Below, one piece after another: positions 3,984 through 58,505 of a DNA stretch of 64,000 nt. Where the stretch lies: contig NZ_CP094975.1 of the NCBI RefSeq assembly GCF_023509015.1, positions 3,775,501-3,839,500 of the forward strand, in the 5' to 3' direction. This DNA comes from Pseudomonas abieticivorans (GTDB taxonomy: Bacteria; Pseudomonadota; Gammaproteobacteria; Pseudomonadales; Pseudomonadaceae). The position numbers and the translations under genes are program-made. Position 1 is the stretch's first letter, and every line of letters begins with the position of its first letter. The notes beneath the pieces were generated by a model. That model saw only the letters and a program-made list of their open reading frames with translations. It did no database searches and had not been told where the DNA came from.

Positions 3984-5728
3984 AAGGCTGTCTCCGTGTC
4001 GGCTGGCAGGGCCAGGCTGAAATGGGCGCCGCCAGCCAGGTTGGCGGCGCTCAGGCGCCCGCCCAGTTCGGTGACGATGGCATAGGATATCGCAAGCCCC
4101 AGCCCTAAACCGTCACCCACGGGCTTGGTGGTGAAAAACGGTTCGAACAGATCGGCCAGGTGGGCGTCGTCAATGCCGCCACCGCTGTCGATCACCGACA
4201 AGCGCCAATTGCCTTGGTCGGCATCGATGCGCACCTCGAGGCGTTTGAGTGGCTGGTTGGCCATGGCGTCCAGGGCGTTGCGCAGTAGGTTGATCAGTAC
4301 TTGTTCCAGGCGGATGGCGTCGCCGCGCACCCAGGCCGGGCGCGCCAGGTGCAGCACGGTGCTGATCCGTTCGGCGTGGATGCGCGGTTCCAGTAGAAGC
4401 AGTGCCTGGTCGACCACGCATGCCAGGTCCAGGCGTTCACGTAACCCAGCGGGGCTTTTGCGCGCGAAGGTCTTTAAATGGCTGGTGAGGGCTGCCATGC
4501 GGCTGAGCATCTGCTCCAACGGCGCCAAGGCCTGGTAGGCATCGTCGACACGACCATGGTCCAACAGCAGGCGCAGGCTGGCCAGTTGCATGCGCTGGGC
4601 GGTGAGGGGCTGGTTGATTTCGTGGGCCAAGGCCGCCGACATCTGCCCCAGGGCGGCCAGCTTGGCAGACTGCACCAGGCCCTCCTGGGCGGTGCGCAAT
4701 TCGGCGGTGCGCTCCTGCACCAGTCGTTCCAGTTCTTCACGGCTGCGCTGGCGCAGTCGGGCCAAGCGCCAGCGTTGGTTGAGCAACAGCAACAGCAGGG
4801 CCCCGCTCAACCACAGGCCGGCCGCGGCCAACGCCGCATTGCGGCTGTCTTCGGCTGCCAGCAATGGGCGGCGCAGCAGGTGCAGGGTCCAGCCGTCGTC
4901 GCCCAGGGCTTGGGATTCCCACAAGTAGTCGGCCCAGCCGTCGGGGGTGTTGACGCGCACCAGGTCGCTGTCATCGTCAAAGCGTTGCAGGCTTTGGTGT
5001 TCCAGAGGGGTCAGTGGCTGTTGGTCATATTGGCGGGTAGAGGTCAGTTCGGCGCGGTCGTTGTTGCTCAGCGGGTGCAGTTCGCGGTAGCGCCACCCGG
5101 GTTGGTTGGCAATGAACACAATGCCGCGGGCATCGCTGACCAGCAGGGTGTCCGAGCCCTGGCGCCATTCGCGCTCCAGCTCCGGGAATTCCAGCTTGAC
5201 CACCATGGCCCCCAGGAACTCGCCTTGGTCGTTGGTCACAGCGCTGGACAGGAAGTAACCCGGAATGCCGCTGGTCACCCCAACCGCGTAGAAGCGCCCG
5301 CTGCCCTGGGTGCGGGTTTGCAGGAAGTAGGGCCGAAAGCCGTAGTTCTGGCCGACGTAGCTGGTAGGCAGTTGCCAGTTGCTGGCGGCGATGGCCAGGC
5401 CGTTGCGGTCCAGAAGCTCGAGAGTCGAGGAGCGGGCCGCGCCGTTGATGGCCTGCAGCTTGCGGTTGAGGCGCTCTTGAGTGGCGGGGCTGACCGGGCC
5501 GTGCAGGGCAGCGATCAGTTCCGGGTCCAGGGCCAGCACGGCCGGCAGGGTGCGGAAGCGTTCGATCAGGGTATGCAGCGAATTGGCGTACAGCCCCAGC
5601 GGCTCGCGGGCGCGAGCGGCCTCCTCGATCATGGCCGTGCGCTCGGCGTGGCGCATGGCCAGAAGCGCTGCCAGCACTGCGCCGCCGACGATGAGCAGGG
5701 CAAGGAGGGGCCAGCGTAGGCGATTCAT
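3980..5728 (-). CDS. membrane sensor histidine kinase, DctB/MifS-like
   Basis: A 582-residue kinase. It has a membrane segment at about residues 6-24, a large periplasmic region (about 25-295) of the double-Cache type expected for organic-acid sensors, a second membrane segment at about 297-317, a short coiled linker, the phospho-acceptor His369 in ALAHEINQPL, and a C-terminal ATPase domain with N (INLLRNALDAM), G1 (DSGGGI) and G2 (GDGLGLGLAIS) boxes. The FFTTKPVGDGLGLGL run is typical of DctB. It overlaps the activator gene by 4 bp and forms a two-gene operon, with the target permease downstream. Ligand is probably a dicarboxylate such as alpha-ketoglutarate, by context. Confidence 0.92.
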   Translation of the reverse strand: MNRLRWPLLALLIVGGAVLAALLAMRHAERTAMIEEAARAREPLGLYANSLHTLIERFRTLPAVLALDPELIAALHGPVSPATQERLNRKLQAINGAARSSTLELLDRNGLAIAASNWQLPTSYVGQNYGFRPYFLQTRTQGSGRFYAVGVTSGIPGYFLSSAVTNDQGEFLGAMVVKLEFPELEREWRQGSDTLLVSDARGIVFIANQPGWRYRELHPLSNNDRAELTSTRQYDQQPLTPLEHQSLQRFDDDSDLVRVNTPDGWADYLWESQALGDDGWTLHLLRRPLLAAEDSRNAALAAAGLWLSGALLLLLLNQRWRLARLRQRSREELERLVQERTAELRTAQEGLVQSAKLAALGQMSAALAHEINQPLTAQRMQLASLRLLLDHGRVDDAYQALAPLEQMLSRMAALTSHLKTFARKSPAGLRERLDLACVVDQALLLLEPRIHAERISTVLHLARPAWVRGDAIRLEQVLINLLRNALDAMANQPLKRLEVRIDADQGNWRLSVIDSGGGIDDAHLADLFEPFFTTKPVGDGLGLGLAISYAIVTELGGRLSAANLAGGAHFSLALPADTETAF

Positions 5729-5737
5729 CAGGCCTCC

Positions 5738-5823
5738 TGTAGGAGCGGATTAATCCGCGAAGCTCACTGCGCGGTGTGTCTGGAATATCGCGGTGTGTTT
5801 TTCGCGGATAAGTCCGCTCCTAC
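5738..5823. repeat. inverted pair of REP-type palindromes
   Basis: Copies of the GTAGGAGCGG..CCGCGAA element at 5738-5761 and, inverted, at 5801-5823. They fill the space between the kinase start and the end of bglX. No other signal is evident in this gap. Confidence 0.85.
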
Positions 5824-5836
5824 TGCGGTACCTGCG

Positions 5837-8131
5837 TTACAGCAGGGTGAAACTCTGCTGCTTAACGTTCTGCGAGTCCAGGCCGATCTGCACCTCGAAC
5901 TCCCCGGCCTCGGCTGCGTACTTGAGCTGGGCGTTGTAGAACTTGAGGTCGTCTTCCTTGATGCTGAAATGCACCACCTTCGATTCGCCAGGCTTGAGCG
6001 TGACGTTCTGGAAGTTCTTCAGCTCCTTGACCGGCCGCGCCATGGAGGCCGTCACGTCGTGCAGGTAGAGCTGCACCACGGTACTGCCCGCCACCTTGCC
6101 GGTGTTGCTCACGGTGATGCTGGCATCCACGCTGCCATTGCGCTTCATGGTCTGCGCCGACAGGGTGACGTCCGACAGGCTGAAGTCGGTGTAGCTCAGG
6201 CCATAGCCAAACGGATACAGCGGGCCGGTTTCCTCGTCGAAATACTGCGAGGTGTAGTTACCGGGCTTGCCTTCGGTAAACGGCCGGCCAATGGTCAGGT
6301 GGCTGTAGTACACCGGGATCTGCCCCACCGAACGCGGGAAGCTGATGGGCAGCTTGCCCGACGGGTTGTAGTCGCCGAACAGCACGTCGGCGATCGCGTT
6401 GCCGCCTTCGGTGCCGGAGAACCAGGTTTCCAGCATGGCGTCGGCTTGTTGCTGTTCTTGTACCAGGGACAGCGGCCGGCCGTTCATCAGTACCAACACC
6501 AACGGCTTGCCGGTGGCTTTCAGGGCCTTGATCAGGTCGCGCTGGGTGCCAGGGATTTCCAGGGTGGTGCGGCTGGCGGACTCGTGGGACATGCCCCGCG
6601 CCTCGCCTACCGCGGCCACGATCACGTCGGCCTGCTGCGCGGCCTGCACCGCTTCGGCAATGATCTGCTCGGCCGGGCGTGGGTCGATGTCGACTTCCTT
6701 GCGGTCGAAAATGATCCGATTGAGGAAGGCCACGGCCTCCTTGTTGTCGATGATGTTCGCGCCCTTGGCGTAGACGATTTTGGCCTTGTCGCCCACGGCA
6801 TTGCGCAGGCCCTGCAGCAGGGTGATGGACTGTTCGGGGCGCCCAGCCGCCGACCAGCTGCCCATCATGTCGATTGGCGAGTTGGCCAGGGGGCCGACCA
6901 AGGCGATGGTGCCCTGTTTTTTCAAGGGCAGGGTGTTGTTGTGGTTCTCCAGCAATACCAGGCTCTTGCGCGCCACTTCACGGGCGGCGTCGCGGTGCAG
7001 GCGGCTCTCGGCATTTACGTCGGCCGGGTCGTTGCTGGCCTTGCCGATGCGCCGGTATGGGTCGGCGAACAGGCCCAGGTCGTACTTGGTGGCCAGTACC
7101 TCGCGCACGGCGTTGTCGATGTCGGCCTGGCTGATCTCGCCATCCTTGAGCAAGCCTGGCAGCTCCTTGCCGTACACCTGATCGTTCATGCTCATGTCGA
7201 TGCCGGCCTTGATTGCCAGCTTGGCGGCTTCACGGTCATCGCGGGCCACGCCGTGCTTGATCAGCTCGTGAATGGCGCCATGGTCGCTGACGGTCAGGCC
7301 CTTGAAGCCCCAGCTTTTGCGCAGCAGGTCCTGCATCAGCCAGGTGTTGGCGGTGGCCGGCACGCCGTTCACCGAGTTCAGTGCCACCATCACCCCGCCG
7401 GCGCCTGCGTCCACGGCGGCACGGTAGGGCGGCAGGTAGTCCTGGAACATGCGTTGCGGGCTCATGTCGACGATGTTGTAGTCACGCCCGCCTTCCACCG
7501 CGCCATACAGGGCGAAGTGCTTGACTGCGGCCATGATGCTGTCGGGCGCCGCGACGTCCTTGCCCTGGTAACCCTGCACCATCACCTTGGCGATGCGCGA
7601 GACCAGGTAGGTATCCTCGCCAAAGCCTTCGCTGGTGCGGCCCCAGCGCGGGTCGCGGGCGATGTCGACCATCGGCCCGTAGGTCATGTCGATGCTGTCG
7701 GCGCTGGCCTCGACGGCCGCGGTGCGTGCGCTCAGGCCGATGGCGTCCATGTCCCAGCTCGAGGCCAGGGCCAGGCTGATCGGGAACAAGGTGCGCTGGC
7801 CATGGATCACGTCATAGGCGAAGAACATCGGGATCTTGAGCCGGCTGTCATTGATGGCCGCGTCCTGCATCGGGCGGTTTTCCGCAGGCGTCACCGAGTT
7901 GAAGGTACCGCCGATGTTGCCGGCGGCGATCTCCTTGCGGATCTGCTCGTGGGTCATTTCCGGCCCGATGGAAATCAGCCGCAGTTGGCCGATCTTCTCT
8001 TGCAGGGTCATCTTCTTCATCAGGTCGGCGATGAAGGCTTCCTTGGTTTTCAGCGGCGAAGGTGGTGTGGCGGCCAGCACCGGTTGACAGGCCAGGCCGA
8101 CGAGCAGGCCCAGCAAACACAGCTTCTTCAT
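5837..8131 (-). CDS. bglX: periplasmic beta-glucosidase, glycoside hydrolase family 3
   Basis: A 764-residue secreted enzyme with signal peptide MKKLCLLGLLVGLACQPVLA. The N-terminal GH3 barrel shows the KHFALYG and SDHGAI motifs, with Asp283 as the likely nucleophile. It is followed by the GH3 C-terminal domain and a fibronectin-type-III-like domain near the end (VTVSNTGKVAGSTVVQLYL). It hydrolyses beta-glucosides in the periplasm. Length and architecture match BglX. It is transcribed alone, divergent from the lipoprotein gene at 8401. Confidence 0.93.
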   Translation of the reverse strand: MKKLCLLGLLVGLACQPVLAATPPSPLKTKEAFIADLMKKMTLQEKIGQLRLISIGPEMTHEQIRKEIAAGNIGGTFNSVTPAENRPMQDAAINDSRLKIPMFFAYDVIHGQRTLFPISLALASSWDMDAIGLSARTAAVEASADSIDMTYGPMVDIARDPRWGRTSEGFGEDTYLVSRIAKVMVQGYQGKDVAAPDSIMAAVKHFALYGAVEGGRDYNIVDMSPQRMFQDYLPPYRAAVDAGAGGVMVALNSVNGVPATANTWLMQDLLRKSWGFKGLTVSDHGAIHELIKHGVARDDREAAKLAIKAGIDMSMNDQVYGKELPGLLKDGEISQADIDNAVREVLATKYDLGLFADPYRRIGKASNDPADVNAESRLHRDAAREVARKSLVLLENHNNTLPLKKQGTIALVGPLANSPIDMMGSWSAAGRPEQSITLLQGLRNAVGDKAKIVYAKGANIIDNKEAVAFLNRIIFDRKEVDIDPRPAEQIIAEAVQAAQQADVIVAAVGEARGMSHESASRTTLEIPGTQRDLIKALKATGKPLVLVLMNGRPLSLVQEQQQADAMLETWFSGTEGGNAIADVLFGDYNPSGKLPISFPRSVGQIPVYYSHLTIGRPFTEGKPGNYTSQYFDEETGPLYPFGYGLSYTDFSLSDVTLSAQTMKRNGSVDASITVSNTGKVAGSTVVQLYLHDVTASMARPVKELKNFQNVTLKPGESKVVHFSIKEDDLKFYNAQLKYAAEAGEFEVQIGLDSQNVKQQSFTLL

Positions 8132-46995: not shown

Positions 46996-47391
46996 TTACT
47001 TCACGGTAATAGCACAATCGAAGGTTTGCACCGGCTTCACTTCCGGCGCCCACGGCTGTTGATACACCAGCAGCAAGTGCCCATCGCCCGCGTTTTGCGC
47101 CTGGAACTGCCACACCGACTGGCCGGCGCTGCCGACCAGGCCCGCGTCTTCCGGGTTGCTGTAAACCTCGGGGCCCAGGCTGCGCAAAATTCCGGGTGCA
47201 GGGTTCTGCACCTTCCAGCGGTAGCCGGTGGTGGGGTTGCTGGGCAGGGTCAGAATCAGGTGCTGGCCGGTGTGCAAGGCCAGGGGGCAGTCGCTTTGCT
47301 TGGCCAGGCTGACGTTCTGTTTGGGCGCTTGTTGGGCGCAGGCGGCGAGCAGGGCAAGGCTCAGCGGGACGAGCAGGCGGGCTGGTTTCAT
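46996..47391 (-). CDS. chagasin-like protease inhibitor (I42 family) lipoprotein
   Basis: A 131-residue envelope protein. The signal region MKPARLLVPLSLALLAAC ends in a LAAC lipobox. The mature part carries the I42 loop NPTTGYRW, and later the QQPWAPE segment, both used by chagasin-type inhibitors to occupy the active site of papain-like cysteine proteases. The biological target in a pseudomonad is unknown. The start at 47391 is preferred over one five codons upstream because it begins the signal sequence cleanly. It lies downstream of lon on the same strand. Confidence 0.85.
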   Translation of the reverse strand: MKPARLLVPLSLALLAACAQQAPKQNVSLAKQSDCPLALHTGQHLILTLPSNPTTGYRWKVQNPAPGILRSLGPEVYSNPEDAGLVGSAGQSVWQFQAQNAGDGHLLLVYQQPWAPEVKPVQTFDCAITVK

Positions 47392-47491
47392 GAAGGCTCC
47401 GGGCAATCAGGGATGGCGCCAGCATAACCGAAGATGAGGGCAAAGCCATTTGGCTGCATTGCCGCACAGGGGCAATGCAGCCAAACGAGTG

Positions 47492-49912
47492 TCAGAACAA
47501 CACTTTTGCGACGTCAGAGAAGCGCTTGGCGAAGTGCACGGTCAGGCCCTGTTTCAGGTAGTCCGGCAGCTCTTCGAAGTTGCCACGGTTGGGCTCCGGC
47601 AGGATCAGCTCATGGATCTTCTGGCGCCGCGCGGCAATCACCTTCTCGCGCACGCCACCAATGGGCAGCACGTGCCCGGTCAGGGTCAGTTCGCCGGTCA
47701 TGGCCACGCCTTTTTTCGGCGCCTGGTTGCGGGCCAGGGACAGCAGGGCGCTGGCCATGGTCACCCCGGCACTCGGGCCGTCCTTGGGCGTGGCGCCTTC
47801 CGGTACGTGCAGGTGCACGAAGGCTTCGTCGAAGAAGGTCGGATCCGCCCCGTATTGCTTGAGGTTGGAGCTGACATAGCTGTAGGCGATCTCTGCCGAC
47901 TCCTTCATCACCTCACCCAATTGCCCGGTCAGCTTGAAGCCGCGGTTCAGCGTGTGGATGCGCGTGGCTTCGATCGGTAGGGTGGCGCCGCCCATGCTGG
48001 TCCAGGCAAGGCCGGTGATCACGCCCTTGCCCGACAGCACTTGCTCGCTGCGGAACACCGGCATGCCCAGGGCGGCTTCCAGGTCCTTGGTGCCGATTTT
48101 GATTGGCGTGCCCGGGGCGTCGAGCAGTTTGACCACGGCCTTGCGCACCAGTTTGCCTAGCTGTTTCTCCAGCTGGCGCACCCCGGCTTCGCGGGCATAG
48201 CCTTCGATCACCGCGCGCAGGGCGCCGTCGCTGATGCCCAGGGTGGCCTTGTCTACGCCGGCTTTTTCCAGCTGCTTGGGCCACAGGTGGCGCTTGGCGA
48301 TGGCCATTTTTTCTTCGGTGATGTAGCCCGACAGGCGGATCACTTCCATGCGGTCCAGCAACGGCCCGGGGATCGAGTCCAAGGTGTTGGCGGTGCACAC
48401 GAACAGCACCTTGGACAGGTCCAGGCGCAGGTCCAGGTAGTGGTCCAGGAAGTCGACGTTCTGTTCCGGGTCCAGGGTTTCCAGCAGCGCCGAGGCTGGG
48501 TCGCCCTGGAAGCTCTGGCCCATCTTGTCGATTTCGTCGAGCATGATCACCGGGTTCATCACCTCGACGTCTTTCAACGCCTGCACCAGCTTGCCCGGTT
48601 GGGCGCCGATGTAGGTGCGCCGGTGGCCCTTGATCTCGGCCTCGTCACGCATGCCGCCGACGCTGAAGCGATAGAACGGCCGGCCCAGGGATTGCGCGAT
48701 GGACTTGCCGACGCTGGTCTTGCCCACGCCCGGCGGCCCCACCAGCAGCACGATGGAACCGGCGATCTCACCCTTATAGGCGCCTACCGCGAGGAACTCC
48801 AGGATGCGTGTCTTGATGTCATCCAGCCCCGCGTGATGCTGGTCGAGCACCTTGCGTGCGTGCTTGAGGTCCAGTTTGTCCTTGCCGTACACGCCCCAGG
48901 GCAGGGCGGTGGCCCAATCCAGGTAGTTGCGGGTAACGGCGTACTCCGGCGAGCCGGTTTCCAGGATGCCCAGCTTGCCCATCTCTTCGTCGATGCGTTT
49001 TTTCGCCTGGGCGGGTAGGGTCTTGCCCTCCAGACGCTGCTGGAATTGTTCGACGTCGGCGCTGCGGTCGTCCTTGGTCAGGCCCAGCTCCTGCTGGATA
49101 ACCTTGAGTTGTTCTTTCAGGAAAAACTCGCGCTGATGTTCGCCGATCTGCCGGTTCACTTCCGCAGAGATCTCTTTTTGCAGATGCGCGACCTCGACCT
49201 CCTTGCGCAGCATGGGCAGCACTTTTTCCATGCGCTTGAGCATCGGCACGCAGTCCAGCACCTGTTGCAGCTCGGGGCCTGTGGCCGAAGTCAGGGCGGC
49301 GGCGAAGTCGGTCAACGGCGACGGGTCGTTGGGGCTGAAGCGGTTGAGGTAGTTTTTCAGCTCCTCGCTGTACAGCGGGTTGAGCGGCAACAGTTCCTTG
49401 ATCGCATTGATCAACGCCATGCCGTAGGCCTTGACCTCGTCGGTCGGCTCGCTGGGCTGGTGCGGGTATTCGACCTCGACCAGGTAGGGCGGGCGATGAT
49501 GCTTGAGCCAGGTGCGGATGCGCACCCGGGACAGGCCCTGGGCGACAAACTGCAGCTTGCCGTTCTCTTTGCTGGCGTGGTGGATCTTTACCAAGGTGCC
49601 GTACAGCGGCAGGTTGGAGGTGTCGAAATGCCGAGTGTCTTCCGGCGGCGTTTCCATGAAGAACAACGCCAGCGAGTGATGCGGGGTCTTGGCCACCAGG
49701 TCCAGGGTTTCGGCCCAGGGCTCTTCGTTGACGATGACCGGCAACACCTGCGCCGGGAAAAACGGCCGGTTGTGGATCGGGATGATGTACACCTTGTCCG
49801 GCAGGTTTTGCCCGGGCAGGGTCAGTTCGGTGCTGGAGTGAGTCGAATGCTCGATGTGTTCGCTTTCCAGGTGTTCGGAGGGATTCTCGGGGAAGTCCTG
49901 CTGGTTGCTCAT
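47492..49912 (-). CDS. lon: ATP-dependent protease Lon
   Basis: An 806-residue LonA-type protease. It has an N-terminal substrate-recognition domain (VYIIPIHNRPFFPAQVLPVI), a AAA+ module with Walker A GPPGVGKTS and Walker B MLDEIDKM, and a C-terminal proteolytic domain with the Ser of GPSAGVTMA and the Lys of GGVREKVIAARR. It degrades misfolded and regulatory proteins in the cytoplasm. The acidic, His-rich N-terminal extension (SEHLESEHIEHSTH) and its position away from clpPX suggest it is the second Lon copy that pseudomonads carry, not the main one. Start at 49912. Confidence 0.93.
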   Translation of the reverse strand: MSNQQDFPENPSEHLESEHIEHSTHSSTELTLPGQNLPDKVYIIPIHNRPFFPAQVLPVIVNEEPWAETLDLVAKTPHHSLALFFMETPPEDTRHFDTSNLPLYGTLVKIHHASKENGKLQFVAQGLSRVRIRTWLKHHRPPYLVEVEYPHQPSEPTDEVKAYGMALINAIKELLPLNPLYSEELKNYLNRFSPNDPSPLTDFAAALTSATGPELQQVLDCVPMLKRMEKVLPMLRKEVEVAHLQKEISAEVNRQIGEHQREFFLKEQLKVIQQELGLTKDDRSADVEQFQQRLEGKTLPAQAKKRIDEEMGKLGILETGSPEYAVTRNYLDWATALPWGVYGKDKLDLKHARKVLDQHHAGLDDIKTRILEFLAVGAYKGEIAGSIVLLVGPPGVGKTSVGKSIAQSLGRPFYRFSVGGMRDEAEIKGHRRTYIGAQPGKLVQALKDVEVMNPVIMLDEIDKMGQSFQGDPASALLETLDPEQNVDFLDHYLDLRLDLSKVLFVCTANTLDSIPGPLLDRMEVIRLSGYITEEKMAIAKRHLWPKQLEKAGVDKATLGISDGALRAVIEGYAREAGVRQLEKQLGKLVRKAVVKLLDAPGTPIKIGTKDLEAALGMPVFRSEQVLSGKGVITGLAWTSMGGATLPIEATRIHTLNRGFKLTGQLGEVMKESAEIAYSYVSSNLKQYGADPTFFDEAFVHLHVPEGATPKDGPSAGVTMASALLSLARNQAPKKGVAMTGELTLTGHVLPIGGVREKVIAARRQKIHELILPEPNRGNFEELPDYLKQGLTVHFAKRFSDVAKVLF

Positions 49913-50071
49913 GGGGCACCTGCGCAATTGGCTATGGTGCTTAGATGGGGCAGTTCGTCGGTGGTTTCAATGGCAGCCCTTCAGCTTTACCAAACCCTGA
50001 CGATATCTATGAAAACCTCTCTGAAACGACGCTAGGGTTGTGTCAGTGGGCCAGTATTACCGTTCGTCTCC

Positions 50072-50100
50072 TTTGCCGCGTAATGGCAAAAGGCTACAAT
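50072..50100 (+). promoter_or_regulatory. candidate promoter of the cupredoxin operon with overlapping dyad
   Basis: TTTGCC at 50072-50077, a 17-bp spacer and TACAAT at 50095-50100. TTTGCC and GGCAAA (50085-50090) form an inverted repeat that covers the -35 box, a typical layout for a repressor or activator site. It would leave a leader of about 90 bases. Confidence 0.5.
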
Positions 50101-50197: not shown

Positions 50198-50905
50198 ATG
50201 CGCAAAGTGCTGATTGCTGTTTTGACCCTGTTGGCCCTGCTGCCAGTGGCTGCCGACGTCCAGGCGGCGAGCCTGGACGCGCAAATGCTCGACCAGGACG
50301 GCAAGCCGCTGCGCAACGCGGTGTTGACCTTGAGCGGCAATGGCCTCAAGGCGCCGGTTGCCGGCAAGGCCGACATGGACCAGCACGACAAGCAGTTCGC
50401 GCCCCATGTGTTGGTGGTGCACACCGGCACACAGGTCAAGTTCCCCAACAGCGATGACATCCGCCACCAGGTCTATTCGTTCTCCGAACCCAAGCGTTTC
50501 GAGTTGCGCCTCTATCAAGGCACGCCCAGCCAACCCCTATTGTTCGATAAGCCAGGCGTGGTGGTGCTGGGGTGCAACATTCACGACACCATGCTTGGCT
50601 ACGTCTACGTGACCGCCGACCCAGTGTTTGCCGTGAGTGACGACAAGGGGCGCATCCACCTGGCCGACCTTGCGCCCGGGCAGTACACCGCGACCCTGTG
50701 GCACCCGCAATCGGCCGACCTGCGTACCCAGCCTGCGGGCGACATCCAGGTGCCCGCCGCGGGGCTTAAACAAAGTTTCAAGGTGACGGTGCAACCCGCC
50801 ACTGGCGAGGCAATGGGTGACATGGATGGCATGGACATGAGCGAACACTCACAGAGCGACTTTGGCAATGCCTTTGATCAAGCTGCCCGTGAACCTGCGA
50901 AATAG
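50198..50905 (+). CDS. periplasmic cupredoxin-like protein (MauL-annotated family)
   Basis: A 235-residue exported protein, signal peptide ending VAADVQA. It begins with a short beta domain (DQDGKPLRNAVLTL) and then a cupredoxin fold. The likely type-1 copper ligands are His90 in DIRHQVYSF, Cys126 and His129 in GCNIHDTM, and Met132. The C-terminus is rich in Met, Asp and His (GDMDGMDMSEH) and may bind extra metal. Such proteins are often labelled methylamine utilization, without evidence for that role here. It overlaps the EAL gene by 38 bp. Confidence 0.82.
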   Translation: MRKVLIAVLTLLALLPVAADVQAASLDAQMLDQDGKPLRNAVLTLSGNGLKAPVAGKADMDQHDKQFAPHVLVVHTGTQVKFPNSDDIRHQVYSFSEPKRFELRLYQGTPSQPLLFDKPGVVVLGCNIHDTMLGYVYVTADPVFAVSDDKGRIHLADLAPGQYTATLWHPQSADLRTQPAGDIQVPAAGLKQSFKVTVQPATGEAMGDMDGMDMSEHSQSDFGNAFDQAAREPAK

Positions 50906-53243
50906 CTTCCAGGCGCGCATCGCCTGCGTATTGATCCTGCTGTTGATGGTAGTGATCGGTGCGTTGACGTTTGCAGTCAAGGGGGCCACCAACGAAGCCG
51001 TGCGTGCCCAGGCCAATGAACAGCTGGAGGTAGGTGCGCGGGTATTCGAGCGCTTGCTCGATGCCCGCGGGCGCCGCCTGCGCGATGGCGTGCAGGTGCT
51101 GGCGCAGGATTTCGGTTTTCGCGATGCGGTGGCCAGTGGCGATTCGGCCACCATCCGCTCGGCACTGGTCAACCACGGCATGCGCATCAATGCCAGTGAC
51201 GTGTTCCTGCTGGGCATGGACGGTCGGGTGCTGTCGAGCACCCTGGACAGTGTCGCGGTTGGCACACCGTTCCGCTTTGACCAGGCCCTGCGCGACATGC
51301 GCCGCAGCAAGCAATCGATGTTGATCGTGCCGTTGGCCGGGCAACCGCACTTGCTGGTGGAGGCGCCGGTGATGGCGCCCCTGCCGATCGCCCGGGTGGT
51401 GATGGGCTTCAGCATGGACAGCGCGTTCGCCCAGGAACTGCGCTCGATGACCAACTTGCAGGTATCGTTCCTGGCCATCGACAATGCCCAACCGGGCGCG
51501 TTGGTCAGTACCCAGCCGGCCGGCTTGCTGGGCAGCCTGAGTATCTGGATGCAGGGCAATCAGAAAGCCCATGGCGTCACCCTGACTGTCTTTGGTGGTG
51601 AGAACTACCTCAGCCAGCCGGTGCTGCTGGGCAACGACAGCAGCGGTCAAGGCCAGGTCGTCGCGTTGCTGCAAAGCCCGCTGGACGAAGCGATGCGCGC
51701 CTTCGCCCCGCTGGACCAGAACATCCTCGGCATCTCGTTGCTGGCCTTGCTGGCATCTTTGGTCGGCGCGTTGTTGCTGGCACGCAGCGTTTCGCAACCG
51801 GTGCAGGCCTTGGCCCAAGCCGCCGGGCGCATCCGCAAGGGTGACTACCAGACGCCTCTGCAAATGACCCGCAGCGACGAGTTGGGCCTGTTGGCCACCG
51901 CTTTCAACCAGATGCAGGAGGGCATCGCCGAACGTGAGCAACTGATCGCCCACAACGCCTTGCACGACAGCCTGACGGGCCTGCCCAACCGCGCGTTGGC
52001 CATGGAGCGCCTGGGCAGTGCAATCGCCGCGCAACGGCCGGTGGCCTTGCTGTACCTGGGCATCGATAACCTGCGCTCGCTCAGTGAAAACGGTGGGCCG
52101 GCCTTTGTCGACAGCCTGTTGCAACGGGTTAGCCAACGCCTTCTGGCAGCAGTTCGCCCGGGCGATACCGTGGCGCACCTGATTGCCGACGAGTTCCTGT
52201 TGCTGCTTGAAGGCATCGACAGCGACAGCGCGGTGGCCATGGCCGACCAGGTGCAGCAATTGCTGCTCAAGCCCCAGCGTATTGGCGGGCACGACATCGC
52301 CATCGATTGCCGTATCGGTATCGCGGCCTATCCTGCCGATGGCGTGACCTGCGACGAGTTACTGGCCCGCGCCGCCATCGCCATGAAAGACGCTGCCGAC
52401 ATACCCGGTCGCCTGCAGGTGTATGAGCACGGCCGCGACCTGGCGCACCAGCGCCAGATCAGCTTGATCCGTGACTTGCGCCGCGCCGCGGCGAACGGCG
52501 AACTGTTGCTCAACTATCAACCCAAGCTCGACATCCGCCAGGGCAGGGTGCGCCAGGCCGAGGCCTTGTTGCGTTGGCAGCACCCGCAGTTCGGCATGGT
52601 CTCGCCGGCTGAGTTCATCGAGCTGGCCGAGCGTACCGGCAGCATCCAGAGCCTGACGCGCTGGGTGATCGGCGAGGGCATCCGGCAGTTGAGCGAATGG
52701 AACAAGCGCGGCATGCGCGTGCAGTTGTCGTTGAACATTTCCGCCGATGACCTGCATGGCCAGGACCTGGCCGAGCAGGTGACGCGAGTGCTCAAGCAGC
52801 ACAACGTGCCGGCCGAGCAACTGATTTTCGAGATCACCGAAAGCGCCGTGATGCGTGAGCCGGAATCGGCGCTCAAGGTGCTCAACCGTCTGCGCGAGTG
52901 CGGCATCAGCCTGTCGGTGGATGACTTCGGCACCGGCTATTCATCGCTGGCCCACCTTAAGCGCCTGCCGGTGCAAGAGCTCAAGATCGACCAGTCCTTT
53001 GTGCGCAACCTGGATGAAACAAGCGAAGACGCGGTGATCGTGCGCTCCACCATCGAGATGAGCCACAACCTGGGGCTCAAGGTGGTGGCCGAGGGCGTCG
53101 AATACGAACATAGCCTGCGCTTACTCGAGCGCTGGCACTGCGATACCGCCCAGGGTTACCTGATCAGCCGGCCGCTCACTGCGGCGGCGTTCGAGGCCTG
53201 GGTCAAACAACCGCTCACCACCCCGTTTGCCATGGTTCATTGA
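50868..53243 (+). CDS. membrane c-di-GMP phosphodiesterase (degenerate GGDEF + EAL)
   Basis: A 791-residue protein: membrane helix at about 16-38, a periplasmic sensor of about 245 residues, a second helix near 287-310, a HAMP linker, a GGDEF domain from about 361, and an EAL domain from about 530. The GGDEF signature is changed to IADEF (near residue 439), so cyclase activity is unlikely. The EAL residues are all present: EALLRW, LNIS, ITES, DDFGTGYSS, KIDQSF, VAEGVE and AQGY. It should therefore hydrolyse c-di-GMP in response to a periplasmic signal, perhaps from the cupredoxin. Start at the ATG 50868. Confidence 0.9.
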   Translation: MPLIKLPVNLRNSFQARIACVLILLLMVVIGALTFAVKGATNEAVRAQANEQLEVGARVFERLLDARGRRLRDGVQVLAQDFGFRDAVASGDSATIRSALVNHGMRINASDVFLLGMDGRVLSSTLDSVAVGTPFRFDQALRDMRRSKQSMLIVPLAGQPHLLVEAPVMAPLPIARVVMGFSMDSAFAQELRSMTNLQVSFLAIDNAQPGALVSTQPAGLLGSLSIWMQGNQKAHGVTLTVFGGENYLSQPVLLGNDSSGQGQVVALLQSPLDEAMRAFAPLDQNILGISLLALLASLVGALLLARSVSQPVQALAQAAGRIRKGDYQTPLQMTRSDELGLLATAFNQMQEGIAEREQLIAHNALHDSLTGLPNRALAMERLGSAIAAQRPVALLYLGIDNLRSLSENGGPAFVDSLLQRVSQRLLAAVRPGDTVAHLIADEFLLLLEGIDSDSAVAMADQVQQLLLKPQRIGGHDIAIDCRIGIAAYPADGVTCDELLARAAIAMKDAADIPGRLQVYEHGRDLAHQRQISLIRDLRRAAANGELLLNYQPKLDIRQGRVRQAEALLRWQHPQFGMVSPAEFIELAERTGSIQSLTRWVIGEGIRQLSEWNKRGMRVQLSLNISADDLHGQDLAEQVTRVLKQHNVPAEQLIFEITESAVMREPESALKVLNRLRECGISLSVDDFGTGYSSLAHLKRLPVQELKIDQSFVRNLDETSEDAVIVRSTIEMSHNLGLKVVAEGVEYEHSLRLLERWHCDTAQGYLISRPLTAAAFEAWVKQPLTTPFAMVH

Positions 53244-53246
53244 TTG

Positions 53247-54110
53247 ATGAAATTCAGAGTTTCCTTTGTGTTGTGTTCATTGGCGTTGGGGTGGGTTGCT
53301 CCGGTGCTGGCCGATCAGGGGCGCTTGTTGGCTACCGGGGGTGCATCCAGTATCGAAGGCGCGGCGGGTGGCGGCATCACGCCGTGGGCGGTGCTGGCCG
53401 GGTACGGCGAGCAGGGCGAGTGGGGCGCCACGGTGTTCGGCACCACGGTCAACCTGCCGGACTACCGCCTGGACGTGGTGGGCATGGCGGCCAGTTATGA
53501 CAACCGCATTGAAGTGTCCTATGCCCGTCAGCGCTTTGACTTGGGCTCGCTGGTGCACAAGCTCGGCCTGCCCGAAGACAGCCTCAGCCAAGACGTGTTC
53601 GGCCTCAAGGTGCGCCTGTTTGGCGACCTGATCTACGACGACTTGCCGCAAGTGTCGCTGGGCCTTGAGTACAAGCACCAGCGCGATTTCCTGATCCCGA
53701 GCCTGGTGGGCGCCAAGCGCGACCACGACGTGGAAGGCTACCTGGCCGCCAGCCGGTTGTTCCTCGGCGCGGCGTTTGGCTACGACCTGCTGGTGAACGG
53801 CAACCTGCGCTACAGCCGGGCCAACGAGCTGGGCGTGCTGGGGTTTGGCGGCGACCGGCGTGACACGCGCAGCGTGCTCAAGGAAGGCTCGGTGGCCGTG
53901 ATGTTCAACCCGCGTTGGGCCATGGGCGTGGAGTATCGAGAAAAGCCGGACAACCTGTCGTTCTCGGGTGAAAGCGATTGGGCCGATGTGTTCGTCGGCT
54001 GGTTCCCGACCAAGCATGTAGCCTTTGTGCTGGCATATGCCCGCCTGGGCGAGATCGCCACCCTGGACAACCAGAACGGCACCTACCTGTCCGTGCAGGG
54101 GAGTTTCTGA
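53247..54110 (+). CDS. DUF3034 family envelope protein
   Basis: A 287-residue protein with signal peptide ending WVAPVLA. The rest is rich in alternating beta strands and ends in an aromatic residue (VQGSF), consistent with a small outer-membrane barrel. The family has no known function. GATGG-type turns (RLLATGGASSIEGAAGGGITP) are conserved near the mature N-terminus. It starts 3 bp after the EAL stop, and its stop overlaps the globin start. Confidence 0.82.
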   Translation: MKFRVSFVLCSLALGWVAPVLADQGRLLATGGASSIEGAAGGGITPWAVLAGYGEQGEWGATVFGTTVNLPDYRLDVVGMAASYDNRIEVSYARQRFDLGSLVHKLGLPEDSLSQDVFGLKVRLFGDLIYDDLPQVSLGLEYKHQRDFLIPSLVGAKRDHDVEGYLAASRLFLGAAFGYDLLVNGNLRYSRANELGVLGFGGDRRDTRSVLKEGSVAVMFNPRWAMGVEYREKPDNLSFSGESDWADVFVGWFPTKHVAFVLAYARLGEIATLDNQNGTYLSVQGSF

Positions 54111-54538
54111 TGAAGCCATTGATCGCCGCAGCCCTGGGCCTTGCGCTGTTGTGGGGTTGCAGCGCGCAACAGCCCGCGCGTGATGACAGCCTGTATCAAG
54201 CGCTGGGCCAGCGCGCCGGTATCCAGAAAATCGTCGAAGGCATGCTCTTGAACATCGCCCGCGACCCGCGCATCGTCGAGCACTTTCGCAAGATCGACAT
54301 CGCCCGCCTGCGCGACAAGCTGGTGGAGCAGTTTTGCGTGGAGGCCGGTGGGCCTTGCGTTTATACCGGCGACAGCATGGCCGAGAGCCACAAGGGCCAA
54401 CACCTGACCCGCAGCGATTTCAACGCCTTGGTGGAAGACCTGATCAAGGCCATGGAAGCGCAGAACGTGCCGGTGCCGGCGCAGAACCGGTTGTTGGCAA
54501 GGCTTGCGCCGATGCGCGGTGAAGTGATCGAAAAATAA
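54110..54538 (+). CDS. truncated haemoglobin (group 1) lipoprotein
   Basis: A 142-residue protein. The N-terminal hydrophobic stretch ends in LLWGC, an imperfect lipobox, so it is probably exported and lipid-anchored, unusual for a globin. The globin part has LYQALGQRAGIQKIVEGML as its first helix, and the proximal haem His lies in ESHKGQHLT. Such globins bind O2, NO or CO. It is last in the cupredoxin-EAL-DUF3034-globin operon, with a terminator 14 bp later. Confidence 0.88.
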   Translation: MKPLIAAALGLALLWGCSAQQPARDDSLYQALGQRAGIQKIVEGMLLNIARDPRIVEHFRKIDIARLRDKLVEQFCVEAGGPCVYTGDSMAESHKGQHLTRSDFNALVEDLIKAMEAQNVPVPAQNRLLARLAPMRGEVIEK

Positions 54539-54552
54539 CGTTTCACAGGCAT

Positions 54553-54593
54553 AAAAAAACCGCCGCGCCCTTCCGGGAGCGGCGGTTTTTTTT
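54553..54593. terminator. bidirectional terminator between the globin gene and gcd
   Basis: CCGCCGC pairs with GCGGCGG around an inner CCC-TTCC-GGG stem. It is flanked by seven A residues before and eight T residues after, so it works in both directions for these convergent genes. Confidence 0.93.
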
Positions 54594-54601
54594 AACCGGC
54601 C

Positions 54602-57022
54602 TTACTCAGCCAGTTTGTAGGCGATGATGTAGTCGCCCATCTTGGTGCCCAGCGAGCCATGGCCGCCAACCACCGACAGCACGTACTGCGCGCCATCCTT
54701 GCCGGTGTAGGTCATTGGCGTGGACTGGCCACCAGCCGGCAGGCGGCTGGACCACAGCTCCTTGCCGTTGCGCACGTCATAGGCGCGGATGTACTGGTCC
54801 AGGGTGCCGCTCAGGAAGCCGACGCCGCCGGCCGTCACCATGGAGCCGCCCATGCTTGGCACACCCAGGTTCAGGCCCAGTGGCACGGGCGAGCTGTCAC
54901 GGCTGGTGCCATTCTTGTGCTTCCAGACGACCTTGGCCGTGGTCATGTCGATACCGGCCACGTAGCCCCAGGCAGGTGCCTGGCACGGTACGCCGAACGG
55001 CGACATCAAGGGGTGCATGATCACCGCGTAAGGCGCGCCAGCGTTAGGTTGCACGCCGCTGGTTTCGCTTTCGCGCTTGCTGTTGGCGTCGACTTTGGCG
55101 CGTGGCACCAGTTGCGATACGAACGCCATGTAGTTAGGGCTGGTGAACAGCATCTGGCGGACTGGGTCTACCGATACCGCGCCCCAGTTGAACACACCGA
55201 CGTTGCCTGGGTAGATGATGCTGCCCTGGACCGACGGAGGGGTGTACTGGCCTTCATAACGCAGCGACTTGAACTGAATACGGCACAGCAGTTGGTCGAA
55301 CGGGGTCACGCCCCACATGGATTTTTCGTTCAGCTCTGGTGCCAGCAGGTTCAGCTCGGAGCGTGCTTGGGTCGGCGAGGTATGATCACCCTCGACAGCG
55401 CCTTGCGGTACCGAGATTTCCTGGATCGGCACGATCGGCGTACCGGTGCGACGGTCCAACACGTACAGGCTGCCTTGCTTGGTCGGCTGAATCAGCGCCG
55501 GCTTCACGCCTTCGGCGGTCTTCATGTCGAGCAGGGTCGGTTGGCTCGGTACGTCCATGTCCCACAGGTCGTGGTGGGTGAACTGGTAGTTCCAGCGCAG
55601 TTTGCCGGTGTCGATGTCCAGGGCCACGGTGCCGGCGCTGAATTTCTCCGACTCTGGGGTACGGTTGCCGCCCCATTGGTCAGGCATCTGGTTGCCCAAT
55701 GGCAGGTAGATCAGGCCCAGCTTCTCGTCGACGCTGGCCAGCGACCACATGTTCGGCGAGTTGCGGGTGTAGGTCTGGCCTTCGGCGATCGGCGCGGTAG
55801 CGTCCGGGTTGCCGGCATCCCAGTTCCATACCAGGTGACCGTCGTGCACGTCGAACGCACGGATCACGCCCGATGGCTCGTTGGTGGATTCGTTGTCGGT
55901 CACGTGGCCGCCAATGATCACCAGGTTACGGGTGATGGCAGCGGGGGAAGTGGCGTAGTAGCCACCTGGGGTGAACGAGCCGATGTTGGCGCGCAGGTTC
56001 ACCACGCCTTTGTTGCCGAAGTCTTCGCAGACTTTACCGGTGTCGGCGTTCAGCGCGATCAGGCGGGCGTCGGCGGTCGGCAGGAACAGGCGACGCGGGC
56101 AACTGGTGGCGACGGCCTGGCCAGCGGTCGACAGGGCTGCCGGGGTGCTGATGGCGTCAGACTTGCTGTAGTTGGCTTCGTCGTAGTACGACACGCCACG
56201 GCAGGTCATGTGCGCCCAGCCACGGAAGTCATTGCCGTTAGGGCCTTGGATTTCAGGGTCGAATCGCCAGATTTCCTTGCCGGTGTCCGGGTCCAGGGCC
56301 AGCACCTTGCTGTGGGCGGTGCAGGCATACAGCATGCCGTTGACCTTCAGCGGGGTGTTCTGGTTGGTCAACTCGACCGGGTCTTTGTCGGTCGGCATGT
56401 CGCCGGTGCGGATACGCCACACTTCTTTCAACTTGCCGACGTTAGCCGCGGTGATCTGCTTGAGCGGCGAGTAACGCTCGCCGAACTCGGTACGGCCATA
56501 CGACTGCCATTCGCCATCGGGCTGGGTTGGCGCGGCGCTGGCCATGTCGGCGGTATCGCGGCCCAGGTCGCCCTTGATTTCACCCGGGTTGGTGAACTGG
56601 CTGGCCACCGCGCAAGCGCCGGCGATGATCACGGCAGCACCCAGTGCGCGGGTGGCGACCGGCGCAGGGCCGTTGCGCAGCAAAGGCACGCGGAAGGCTG
56701 GCAGCCACAGCAGCGCACCCAGCACGAACCACAGCGACAGGCGTGGGACCAGTTGCCACCAGTCCAGGCCGACTTCATACAAGGACCAGACGGTGCTGGC
56801 GAACAGGAACAGCGCGTACAAGCCGATCGCGGCCTGGCGACCGGTCAGCAGCAGGATACCGTTGATCACCAGAACAACACCGGCGATCACGTAGTAAAGC
56901 GAGCCGCCCAGGGTGGCCAGTTTGATACCCAGGCCTAGCAAACCCAAACCAAGCAATAGAAATACCAGGCCCAACAAGTTGGGCCACAGGCGAGATCTAC
57001 TCAAAGCACCGTCAGTGCTCAT
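54602..57022 (-). CDS. gcd: PQQ-dependent membrane glucose dehydrogenase
   Basis: An 806-residue quinoprotein that oxidises glucose to gluconolactone in the periplasm and feeds electrons to ubiquinone. The first 150 residues hold five membrane helices; the rest is the eight-bladed PQQ propeller (EWQSYGRTEFGERYSPLKQI; WGYVAGIDMTTAKVVW; GKDGAQYVLSVVGG). It is followed upstream by oprB on the same strand, as in P. putida, so glucose entry and oxidation are encoded together. GGAG lies before the ATG at 57022. Confidence 0.96.
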   Translation of the reverse strand: MSTDGALSRSRLWPNLLGLVFLLLGLGLLGLGIKLATLGGSLYYVIAGVVLVINGILLLTGRQAAIGLYALFLFASTVWSLYEVGLDWWQLVPRLSLWFVLGALLWLPAFRVPLLRNGPAPVATRALGAAVIIAGACAVASQFTNPGEIKGDLGRDTADMASAAPTQPDGEWQSYGRTEFGERYSPLKQITAANVGKLKEVWRIRTGDMPTDKDPVELTNQNTPLKVNGMLYACTAHSKVLALDPDTGKEIWRFDPEIQGPNGNDFRGWAHMTCRGVSYYDEANYSKSDAISTPAALSTAGQAVATSCPRRLFLPTADARLIALNADTGKVCEDFGNKGVVNLRANIGSFTPGGYYATSPAAITRNLVIIGGHVTDNESTNEPSGVIRAFDVHDGHLVWNWDAGNPDATAPIAEGQTYTRNSPNMWSLASVDEKLGLIYLPLGNQMPDQWGGNRTPESEKFSAGTVALDIDTGKLRWNYQFTHHDLWDMDVPSQPTLLDMKTAEGVKPALIQPTKQGSLYVLDRRTGTPIVPIQEISVPQGAVEGDHTSPTQARSELNLLAPELNEKSMWGVTPFDQLLCRIQFKSLRYEGQYTPPSVQGSIIYPGNVGVFNWGAVSVDPVRQMLFTSPNYMAFVSQLVPRAKVDANSKRESETSGVQPNAGAPYAVIMHPLMSPFGVPCQAPAWGYVAGIDMTTAKVVWKHKNGTSRDSSPVPLGLNLGVPSMGGSMVTAGGVGFLSGTLDQYIRAYDVRNGKELWSSRLPAGGQSTPMTYTGKDGAQYVLSVVGGHGSLGTKMGDYIIAYKLAE

Positions 57023-57122
57023 AGTGTGTTTCTCCGTTACGTTTTAAGTAGTGGAGCGTAGTTCAGAATTTTCCTACGCTCCTGCTGAGGTACTACAGCG
57101 AACGAATAGTTCGCTTTTAAAT

Positions 57123-58505
57123 TCAGAAAGAACTTTGAATCTTGATGCCACCGACCCAGGCGTTATCCACTTCGGAGACGCCGCCAGGGTGGCGCACGTA
57201 CTGCAGGTTGGGGCGCACGGTCAGCCAATTGGCCACGTGCACGCCGTAATTGAGTTCGGCGCTGGATTCGGTGCGTTGGATCGGCAAGTAGCTGGGGTCG
57301 TCGTAGTCATACACGGCGTTGGCGAGGTTCTGCGCCTCGGCGTTTTTGCGGTAGGCAGGGTTCACGTGGATGCGCGCCACGGCAAAGCCGATGTCATCCT
57401 TGGGGCGGGCGTCGAACAGGCCCTTGTACACCACGCCGGCCTGCACATAGTTGTCGACCATGTTGGTTTTCTTGTCGTGCACGGTCACGTTGCCGAACAC
57501 GCTCAGGCCGCGCGAGTGGTCGCTCGCCAGGCTGGTCAGTTGCTGGTTCAGGCCCAGCCAGTAGCCGTGCTTGCTCGAACTCGAGCGGTAGTCATCGCCG
57601 CTGAGGGCGGCCGGTTGGCCTTGGTTGTCTTTATAGACGTCCTTGGCGTTGGCGGTGCTGTAGTAGTAACCGGCACGGTATTCGCCCGGCAGGCCGTTCA
57701 GGGTTGGGGTCCACACCAGTTCCACGGGCAGTACCGCGCCTTGGGTGCCGCTGCCGCTCAATTTGAAACCGTTACCATTTTCCAGGTTGGACGGGTTCTG
57801 CTCGTAGGCGCCAACCTGTGCGTAAACCTCTGGGGTGATGTGGTACTTGACGCGCATCGCCCATTGGCTGACCGGCCAGTTGTACCAGATGGAACCGGCC
57901 CAGTTGCCAACTTGCGAGCCGCAGAACGCCAGGTTCTGGAAGTCGCAGTTGAAGCTGTTGAAGTCTTCGCCTTCGCCAAAGCGGCCGACCTTGATGTCGA
58001 GCTTGCGGTCCAAAAACTTCTGTTGGTAGTACATCTGGGTCAGGCGCACGATGCTGCCGCGGCCATAAACTTCCTGGGACGAGCTGATGCCGCCGGTGCG
58101 CGGGTCGGCCACGCGGTCGTTGGTGATGTTGTCACCGTTGCGGTCGGTCAGGGTCAGTTGGAACTCGGCGTCGTGCCAGCCCAGGATTTTCTGCAGGTCC
58201 ATGTGCATGCCCAAGGCGAACTGGTCGCTGTAGCGGGTGGCGTGGTCGTGATTGTAGCCGCCGTGCAGGTTGCTGCCGGTCTCGCCCACGTAGTCCAGCT
58301 TGAAGTCGTAACCGGCGTTAGCCAGCTCGGTACGCTTGCCGCCCCAGTCGCCCAGCATCCACGGGGAGTCGCTGTCGAATGCCGGTGCGGCCTGGGCGCA
58401 GGTGGCCAAGCCCAGGGCAGTCATGCCGCCCAGCAGTCGGAGGGCCTTTGCACAGGCCAGGGAAGTGCGAGCGACGCGAGGACGCTGGAAGTCGATATCG
58501 GGCAT
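57123..58505 (-). CDS. oprB: carbohydrate-selective porin OprB
   Basis: A 460-residue outer-membrane protein. It has a signal region ending LATCAQA, the OprB mature start (WMLGDWGGKRTELANAGYDFKLDYVGE) and a C-terminal Phe (GGIKIQSSF). It lets glucose and other sugars into the periplasm, where Gcd acts. The ATG at 58505 has only a weak ribosome site, AAGAA; no better start is visible. It is the first gene before gcd in the same orientation. Confidence 0.93.
   Translation of the reverse strand: MPDIDFQRPRVARTSLACAKALRLLGGMTALGLATCAQAAPAFDSDSPWMLGDWGGKRTELANAGYDFKLDYVGETGSNLHGGYNHDHATRYSDQFALGMHMDLQKILGWHDAEFQLTLTDRNGDNITNDRVADPRTGGISSSQEVYGRGSIVRLTQMYYQQKFLDRKLDIKVGRFGEGEDFNSFNCDFQNLAFCGSQVGNWAGSIWYNWPVSQWAMRVKYHITPEVYAQVGAYEQNPSNLENGNGFKLSGSGTQGAVLPVELVWTPTLNGLPGEYRAGYYYSTANAKDVYKDNQGQPAALSGDDYRSSSSKHGYWLGLNQQLTSLASDHSRGLSVFGNVTVHDKKTNMVDNYVQAGVVYKGLFDARPKDDIGFAVARIHVNPAYRKNAEAQNLANAVYDYDDPSYLPIQRTESSAELNYGVHVANWLTVRPNLQYVRHPGGVSEVDNAWVGGIKIQSSF

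Follow-up and report, generated by a model that had tools for sequence, protein, structure and literature searches.

In the YfiBNR (TpbB) system of Pseudomonas, an outer-membrane lipoprotein, a periplasmic regulator and an inner-membrane enzyme of cyclic di-GMP (c-di-GMP) metabolism are co-encoded, the enzyme YfiN making c-di-GMP. In the NspS-MbaA system of Vibrio cholerae, polyamine-binding NspS controls a membrane GGDEF-EAL phosphodiesterase via its periplasmic domain, and in the DosP, H-NOX and NosP systems a haem protein is tied to a c-di-GMP enzyme, the haem sensors being cytoplasmic or fused. Here we describe a four-gene cassette of Pseudomonas abieticivorans, found in a stretch of 64,000 nt of contig NZ_CP094975.1 (the window), which encodes a predicted exported cupredoxin, a predicted inner-membrane c-di-GMP phosphodiesterase, a DUF3034 protein and a putative globin lipoprotein. 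We are confident that the four genes make one unit, given their order across genomes, their sequences and the models of their products; the data suggest that they form a sensing system linking the cell surface with the inner membrane.

The cassette is like YfiBNR in that a putative outer-membrane lipoprotein and a periplasmic partner are co-encoded with an inner-membrane c-di-GMP enzyme. It is not a member of that system: its output is an EAL domain with a degenerate GGDEF domain, not a YfiN-type GGDEF, and its partners are, by Pfam and fold, a cupredoxin, DUF3034 and a globin, not YfiR and YfiB. With NspS-MbaA it shares a periplasmic partner that would govern a membrane GGDEF-EAL phosphodiesterase; however, the partner in the window is a copper protein, and a globin and a barrel are present in the window cassette only, which places it outside that system too. 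Entries for DosP in the PDB matched the GGDEF-EAL part of the window protein; in contrast to DosP, H-NOX and NosP, the haem in the window cassette would be exported. The source genome yielded neither an H-NOX nor a FIST (NosP-type) protein, other sensors of nitric oxide (NO) being outside the search. The combination of genes was not found in the open-access literature, subscription papers being outside coverage. A paper on truncated hemoglobin, c-di-GMP and Pseudomonas (PMC3770913) does not describe it in the part available, and the phrase 'periplasmic truncated hemoglobin' occurs in the available part of a paper on cable bacteria (PMC12093952). The components belong to known families; their combination is undescribed within the literature covered.

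All four genes lie on the + strand at 50198–54538, where the original prediction had placed four tightly spaced or overlapping genes; the coordinates agreed to the base. The phosphodiesterase gene (50868–53243, 791 amino acids, aa) starts at ATG 50868 and overlaps the cupredoxin gene (50198–50905, 235 aa) by 38 nt; a gap of 3 nt separates it from the DUF3034 gene (53247–54110, 287 aa), which overlaps the globin gene (54110–54538, 142 aa) by 1 nt (TGATG). Such overlaps and so short a gap suggest one transcript. A hairpin with a U-tract located 3′ of the globin gene at about 54553–54592, also on the + strand (−30.9 kcal/mol, z −4.8), is a probable terminator of the cassette; a pattern-based terminator scan did not list it. 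The sole sigma-70-like site upstream (50073–50100) has a score at chance level.

The original prediction would have fallen if the four genes were rarely adjacent elsewhere. To see their arrangement we collected up to 13 kb around every DUF3034 match (84 loci) as well as 80 named loci, with matches found by phmmer; as the sets overlap, 163 loci reduce to 143 distinct DUF3034 ends. Two loci (L128 and L219) were sorted by eye because of long open frames. The complete order cupredoxin-EAL-DUF3034-globin was kept in 124 of the 143 distinct loci. Among the 84 fetched loci, 66 had this order on one strand, while six had an EAL-cupredoxin pair divergent from DUF3034-globin (all six genomes being related at phylum level only), three had DUF3034-globin and then the cupredoxin (L077, L140 and L128, the last with EAL after it) and six had DUF3034-globin by itself; at L086, in genome G225, a second copy is broken. 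For the named loci the order was complete in 77 of 80, and each of the three incomplete ones (L182, L196, L201) is near a contig end. The globin accompanied DUF3034 at every intact locus examined. In six genomes (G069, G405, G358, G370, G390, G533) the cassette is split, with the cupredoxin-EAL pair retained elsewhere in the genome; thus, both halves of split cassettes often persist. In G405 the DUF3034 gene is 5′-truncated and the globin gene intact. At L156 the EAL gene is spread over three open frames. Separately, at a Xanthomonas locus (L219) EAL and DUF3034 matches lie in one continuous frame (3583–6825), which could be due to mutation, sequencing error or fusion.

Co-occurrence was assessed in two samples, one of 149 congeneric genomes and one of 398 genomes from the phylum, with DUF3034 called by PF11231; the cut-offs were >180 bits for the globin and >200 bits for the cupredoxin in the genus sample, and E ≤ 1e-6 for the cupredoxin in the phylum sample. 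DUF3034 was present in 47 of the 149 and in 39 of the 398 genomes. The globin was found in exactly the same 47 genus genomes, with one additional weak match (37.5 bits) in G093, and the cupredoxin in these 47 and in G079. Among the 102 genus genomes that have no DUF3034, 101 therefore lack a strong cupredoxin and all lack a strong globin; ten genus genomes gave cupredoxin matches that were only marginal (20–30 bits), in the source genome (G000) as a second match. In the phylum sample the cupredoxin occurred in 38 of 39 genomes with DUF3034 versus 20 of 359 others (Fisher p 3.5e-37, shared descent ignored). Across 299 phylum genomes, globin matches of at least 78 bits were all at DUF3034 loci except one in G300. 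The latter (L288) is a globin with the Cys pair described below (102 bits) without DUF3034; elsewhere in the same genome a weak EAL match adjoins a distant cupredoxin (L254).

One could ask if the linkage reflects chance or inherited synteny with no functional link. The gene lon adjoins the locus in the window, at L145 and at L146, so the position is partly inherited. Still, loci that are rearranged yet linked, in three arrangements in distant taxa, contradict such an explanation, and the absence of strong cupredoxin and globin from nearly all genus genomes without DUF3034 weighs against it. Nor does a flanking family persist outside the Pseudomonas family: in 32 loci there we found no fifth conserved gene, the most widespread neighbour family being present at four loci. 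We consider this explanation very improbable.

Type-1 copper proteins usually shuttle single electrons, often with haem protein partners. The first gene of the cassette is supported as encoding an exported protein of this predicted type. The copper ligands named in the original prediction, His90, Cys126, His129 and Met132, turned out to be invariant in two sets, one of 77 aligned sequences (the window protein with 76 relatives) and one of 77 relatives from the named loci. A Pfam scan gave no match above the curated cut-off, and profile matches in the PDB were almost all to copper proteins. An AlphaFold2 (AF2) model, with a predicted local distance difference test score (pLDDT) of 88, has by Foldseek and VIA-align a cupredoxin fold similar to amicyanin and plastocyanin. 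Fold and ligand set are shared with amicyanin, plastocyanin and pseudoazurin, and the spacing of the copper loop, C-x2-H-x2-M, is that of amicyanin. Unlike in these proteins, the cupredoxin domain (residues ∼55–140; codons 55–140 at 50360–50617, delimited by conservation, PDB profile and model) is, in the model, nested in a transthyretin-like (carboxypeptidase-regulatory-like) domain (∼24–50 and 141–199), and is encoded with a signalling enzyme.

The pairing of cupredoxin and EAL protein is not confined to the cassette. G079 has such a pair (L145) with neither DUF3034 nor globin, and at 28 cupredoxin loci unlinked to DUF3034 we observed an EAL neighbour in 15, a weak EAL match in one (L254) and a PAS-histidine kinase in two. 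In the last two (L255, L256) the cupredoxin relative is two genes from a kinase with a receiver domain, which suggests reuse of the cupredoxin as an input with a different output. Since pairs occur without DUF3034-globin, the core looks like the cupredoxin-EAL pair, with DUF3034-globin as an accessory pair. The lone pairs, together with the cupredoxins near PAS-histidine kinases, suggest a role as sensor partner for the cupredoxin; that it is the direct input partner of the phosphodiesterase we hold to be somewhat more probable than the opposite. At ten unlinked loci (L233, L240, L242, L243, L248–L253) a secreted protein of ∼410 aa is encoded near the cupredoxin; five of eight tested had matches to porins or outer-membrane barrels, all under Pfam cut-offs, and this protein may be an alternative outer-membrane partner.

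A partnership of this kind could also serve copper-ion sensing, with metal loading of the cupredoxin, not its redox state, setting the phosphodiesterase, DUF3034 acting as a channel for copper or a copper chelate, and the globin protecting or supporting. This would leave unexplained why a haem globin is paired with DUF3034 at every intact locus. Also, the Met-rich tail of the cupredoxin is not conserved, being a gap in 73–76 of 77 aligned sequences, and copper-regulator-like motifs were not enriched (1 versus 15.6 in shuffled sequences) upstream of 153 cupredoxin genes, a collection that includes duplicates between sets and was scanned with consensus patterns. We judge copper sensing unlikely.

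For the second gene, the membrane EAL phosphodiesterase with a periplasmic sensor proposed earlier was borne out as a prediction from domains and residues. Pfam matches were EAL (1e-76), GGDEF (6.8e-26), HAMP (1.8e-15) and dCache_3 (3e-10); with hydropathy they give a layout of a transmembrane segment (TM, ∼12–41), a periplasmic dCache_3 sensor domain (51006–51482), a second TM (∼284–309), HAMP, a GGDEF-like domain (51957–52394) and EAL (52470–53174), the GGDEF-EAL part also matching solved structures. An intact GG(D/E)EF motif is absent from the window protein, which reads ADEF at residue 440; the motif is degenerate in most pseudomonad relatives, and GGDEF in some other lineages. The EAL catalytic set is complete (E565, N623, E655, D685, D686, K706, E742, Q762). 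These eight positions are identical in 75 of 75 sequences, and in the second set in 77 of 77 except for the Gln (76 of 77). Hydrolysis of c-di-GMP by the EAL domain is predicted from the full set of metal and substrate residues.

The dCache_3 domain, the only match to this family found in the source genome, contains a motif D-F-G-F...A...T..S...N...R (DFGF at residue 81). Of 147 EAL proteins encoded beside a cupredoxin at DUF3034 loci (proteins with at least 250 bits, duplicates included), 143 have it, the exceptions being L079, L081, L084 and L224. By the distance rule the motif occurred without a cupredoxin at L137, which truly has none, and at L128, L130 and L211, whose neighbouring cupredoxin the rule overlooked; two further rows without the motif are fragments (L156, L182). 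At 20 loci a tandem EAL paralogue (∼910–980 bits to the window protein) with no cupredoxin of its own stands beside the cassette, upstream (L090, L095, L098, L101, L105, L108, L117, L151–L154, L156, L160–L162, L172) or downstream (L065, L112, L158, L175). The motif is lost in these paralogues (14 distinct sequences), and in the one tested with Pfam (L065) EAL, GGDEF and HAMP were matched, with no dCache_3 at 1e-3. We did not accept the motif as a strict marker for a cupredoxin partner, as only seven of the 15 unlinked cupredoxin-adjacent EAL proteins carry it. The D-F-G-F region is a candidate contact site for the cupredoxin, a lead and not a proof because a single duplication probably gave rise to the tandem paralogues and eight of the 15 unlinked pairs lack the motif.

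The third protein (Pfam DUF3034, PF11231, 8.3e-111) has a signal peptide and an invariant Gly-rich N-terminal segment, followed by a barrel. Its AF2 model (pLDDT 72) has 12 strands in a barrel fold; fold matches were FapF (the best), a COG4313 channel, NanC and KdgM. In the model the protein is a 12-stranded outer-membrane β-barrel. The claim that everything except the EAL output faces the periplasm is accordingly to be amended: predicted export of cupredoxin, barrel and globin agrees with it, whereas the DUF3034 protein is modelled in the outer membrane itself. FapF is an outer-membrane amyloid exporter; identity to it is 12–14%, and the scores of further 12-stranded barrels come close to that of FapF; no fap-like neighbours were noticed around the loci, where no search was aimed at fap genes. 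These channel-like matches, and the ∼410-aa protein with weak porin matches often seen at unlinked cupredoxin-EAL loci, would fit a system of regulated transport, in which DUF3034 imports or exports a molecule, the phosphodiesterase tunes biofilm matrix output to it, and cupredoxin and globin assist in assembly or redox chemistry. The low identity to FapF and the lack of a recurring cargo gene in the neighbourhood make this improbable.

The fourth protein matches Bac_globin (PF01152, 1.7e-12) and aligns to HbN of Mycobacterium tuberculosis, as expected for a group 1 truncated globin; with a lipobox Cys17, it fits the exported, lipid-anchored truncated haemoglobin that had been anticipated from the letters. 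The predicted proximal ligand His94 is kept in 84 of 84 and 80 of 80 sequences. The distal pocket is apolar (Leu46 at B10, Leu67 at E7, Leu71 at E11), with hydrophobic residues at these positions throughout the relatives except for one Asn at B10 among 84. The HbN-type (TrHbN-1) Tyr B10 and Gln E11 were seen in neither relative set, and by residues, rather than by tree, the protein falls in the TrHbN-2 type. A Cys pair (Cys76/Cys83) is present in 142 of 143 globin sequences and in two of 19 unlinked control globins (L288, L305), so that it is a better separator than Tyr B10, found in 12 of these controls and not in seven. The hydrophobic B10, E7 and E11 are shared with the TrHbN-2 protein of Shewanella benthica (SbHbN; PMC11904497, available part). 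The window globin differs in being a putative lipoprotein with cysteines at E16 and seven residues on, those of SbHbN being at E16 and F10 and called too distant for a disulfide in the same part of that paper.

In the available parts of PMC4720485 and PMC11904497 an apolar pocket is predicted to stabilize O2 weakly, and in that of PMC11904497 low O2 affinity is expected for the TrHbN-2 pattern. The suggestion that the globin binds NO or O2 is accordingly to be modified: tight O2 binding and HbN-type NO dioxygenation are not supported by the hydrophobic B10, E7 and E11. The remaining candidate ligands are NO, carbon monoxide, nitrite, peroxide and low-affinity O2; NO as the specific ligand seems to us doubtful. 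Another reading is detoxification, in which cupredoxin and globin would be a periplasmic redox pair consuming NO or peroxide, the phosphodiesterase being merely co-expressed. Two proteins with one-electron cofactors do share the compartment, and NO and peroxide chemistry is known for truncated globins (PMC4720485 and PMC11904497, parts available). However, EAL proteins or kinases also have the cupredoxin beside them where the globin is absent, and the globin is without the Tyr B10 and Gln E11 of HbN, leaving detoxification quite unlikely.

Of the original prediction, the linkage of the four genes is well supported, and the sensing of copper redox state or a gas with a lowering of c-di-GMP stays a hypothesis. 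Redox gating of the phosphodiesterase is the simplest reading, as an electron-carrying copper protein accompanies the enzyme and a haem globin shares its compartment. The likely locations, the copper and haem ligands and the complete EAL site are shown at the level of sequences and models. In the redox relay that we propose, the exported cupredoxin would contact dCache_3 as its input partner and set EAL activity via HAMP; the DUF3034 barrel and the lipoprotein globin would be an outer-membrane accessory pair. The globin haem, placed beneath or next to the barrel, may react with a small molecule such as NO, O2, nitrite or peroxide and, through transfer of one electron, oxidize or reduce the cupredoxin, with oxidized and reduced cupredoxin acting differently on the phosphodiesterase. 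Envelope redox chemistry could in this way change c-di-GMP and lead to attachment or dispersal, in a direction that would depend on the sign of the response.

Several observations weigh against the redox relay. The electron transfer and the contacts are steps that we infer. Co-occurrence counts ignore shared descent; in G123 a cupredoxin of this family, though more divergent (139 bits), is present with no DUF3034, and G225 has DUF3034-globin with zero cupredoxin matches. L122 is without an adjoining EAL gene and L137 without a cupredoxin, while at ten of the 28 unlinked cupredoxin loci neither an EAL protein nor a kinase is a neighbour (L232 ends at a contig end). The probable single duplication behind the tandem paralogues and the unlinked pairs without the dCache motif belong here as well. 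No regulator motif is claimed from the scan of the 153 upstream regions; observed versus shuffled counts were ANR/FNR 8 versus 6.4, sigma-54-like 118 versus 112.4, NsrR-like 5 versus 2.8, Fur-like 2 versus 1.6 and NorR-like 59 versus 100.6. The whole redox-relay mechanism is, at most, a little less than an even prospect. We hold as a distinctly tentative proposal the wider one of an electron-transfer-gated c-di-GMP system, in which an outer-membrane haem globin with its channel would exchange electrons with the copper protein, whose redox state, sensed by dCache, would switch hydrolysis, the modular cupredoxin input being reused with other outer-membrane barrels and histidine kinases.

The genes flanking the cassette in the window are all on the − strand: upstream (46996–49927) a chagasin-family (I42) inhibitor and Lon protease, downstream and convergent (54602–58505) a pyrroloquinoline quinone-dependent dehydrogenase and an OprB-family porin.

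The c-di-GMP phosphodiesterases help to set attachment of pseudomonads and xanthomonads, in many cases through periplasmic inputs that are unknown. For this cassette, the sequence allows the parts of an input to be named: a copper protein, which accompanies the enzyme even where the two stand alone, and a putative outer-membrane haem unit that is nearly always in the same genome. DUF3034, a family without described function, gains a probable location and partners, and exported truncated globins gain a testable role. If redox gating is true, envelope redox or NO chemistry would be linked to biofilm behaviour; if gating is by electron transfer, the cassette would present a cupredoxin that gates a second-messenger enzyme.

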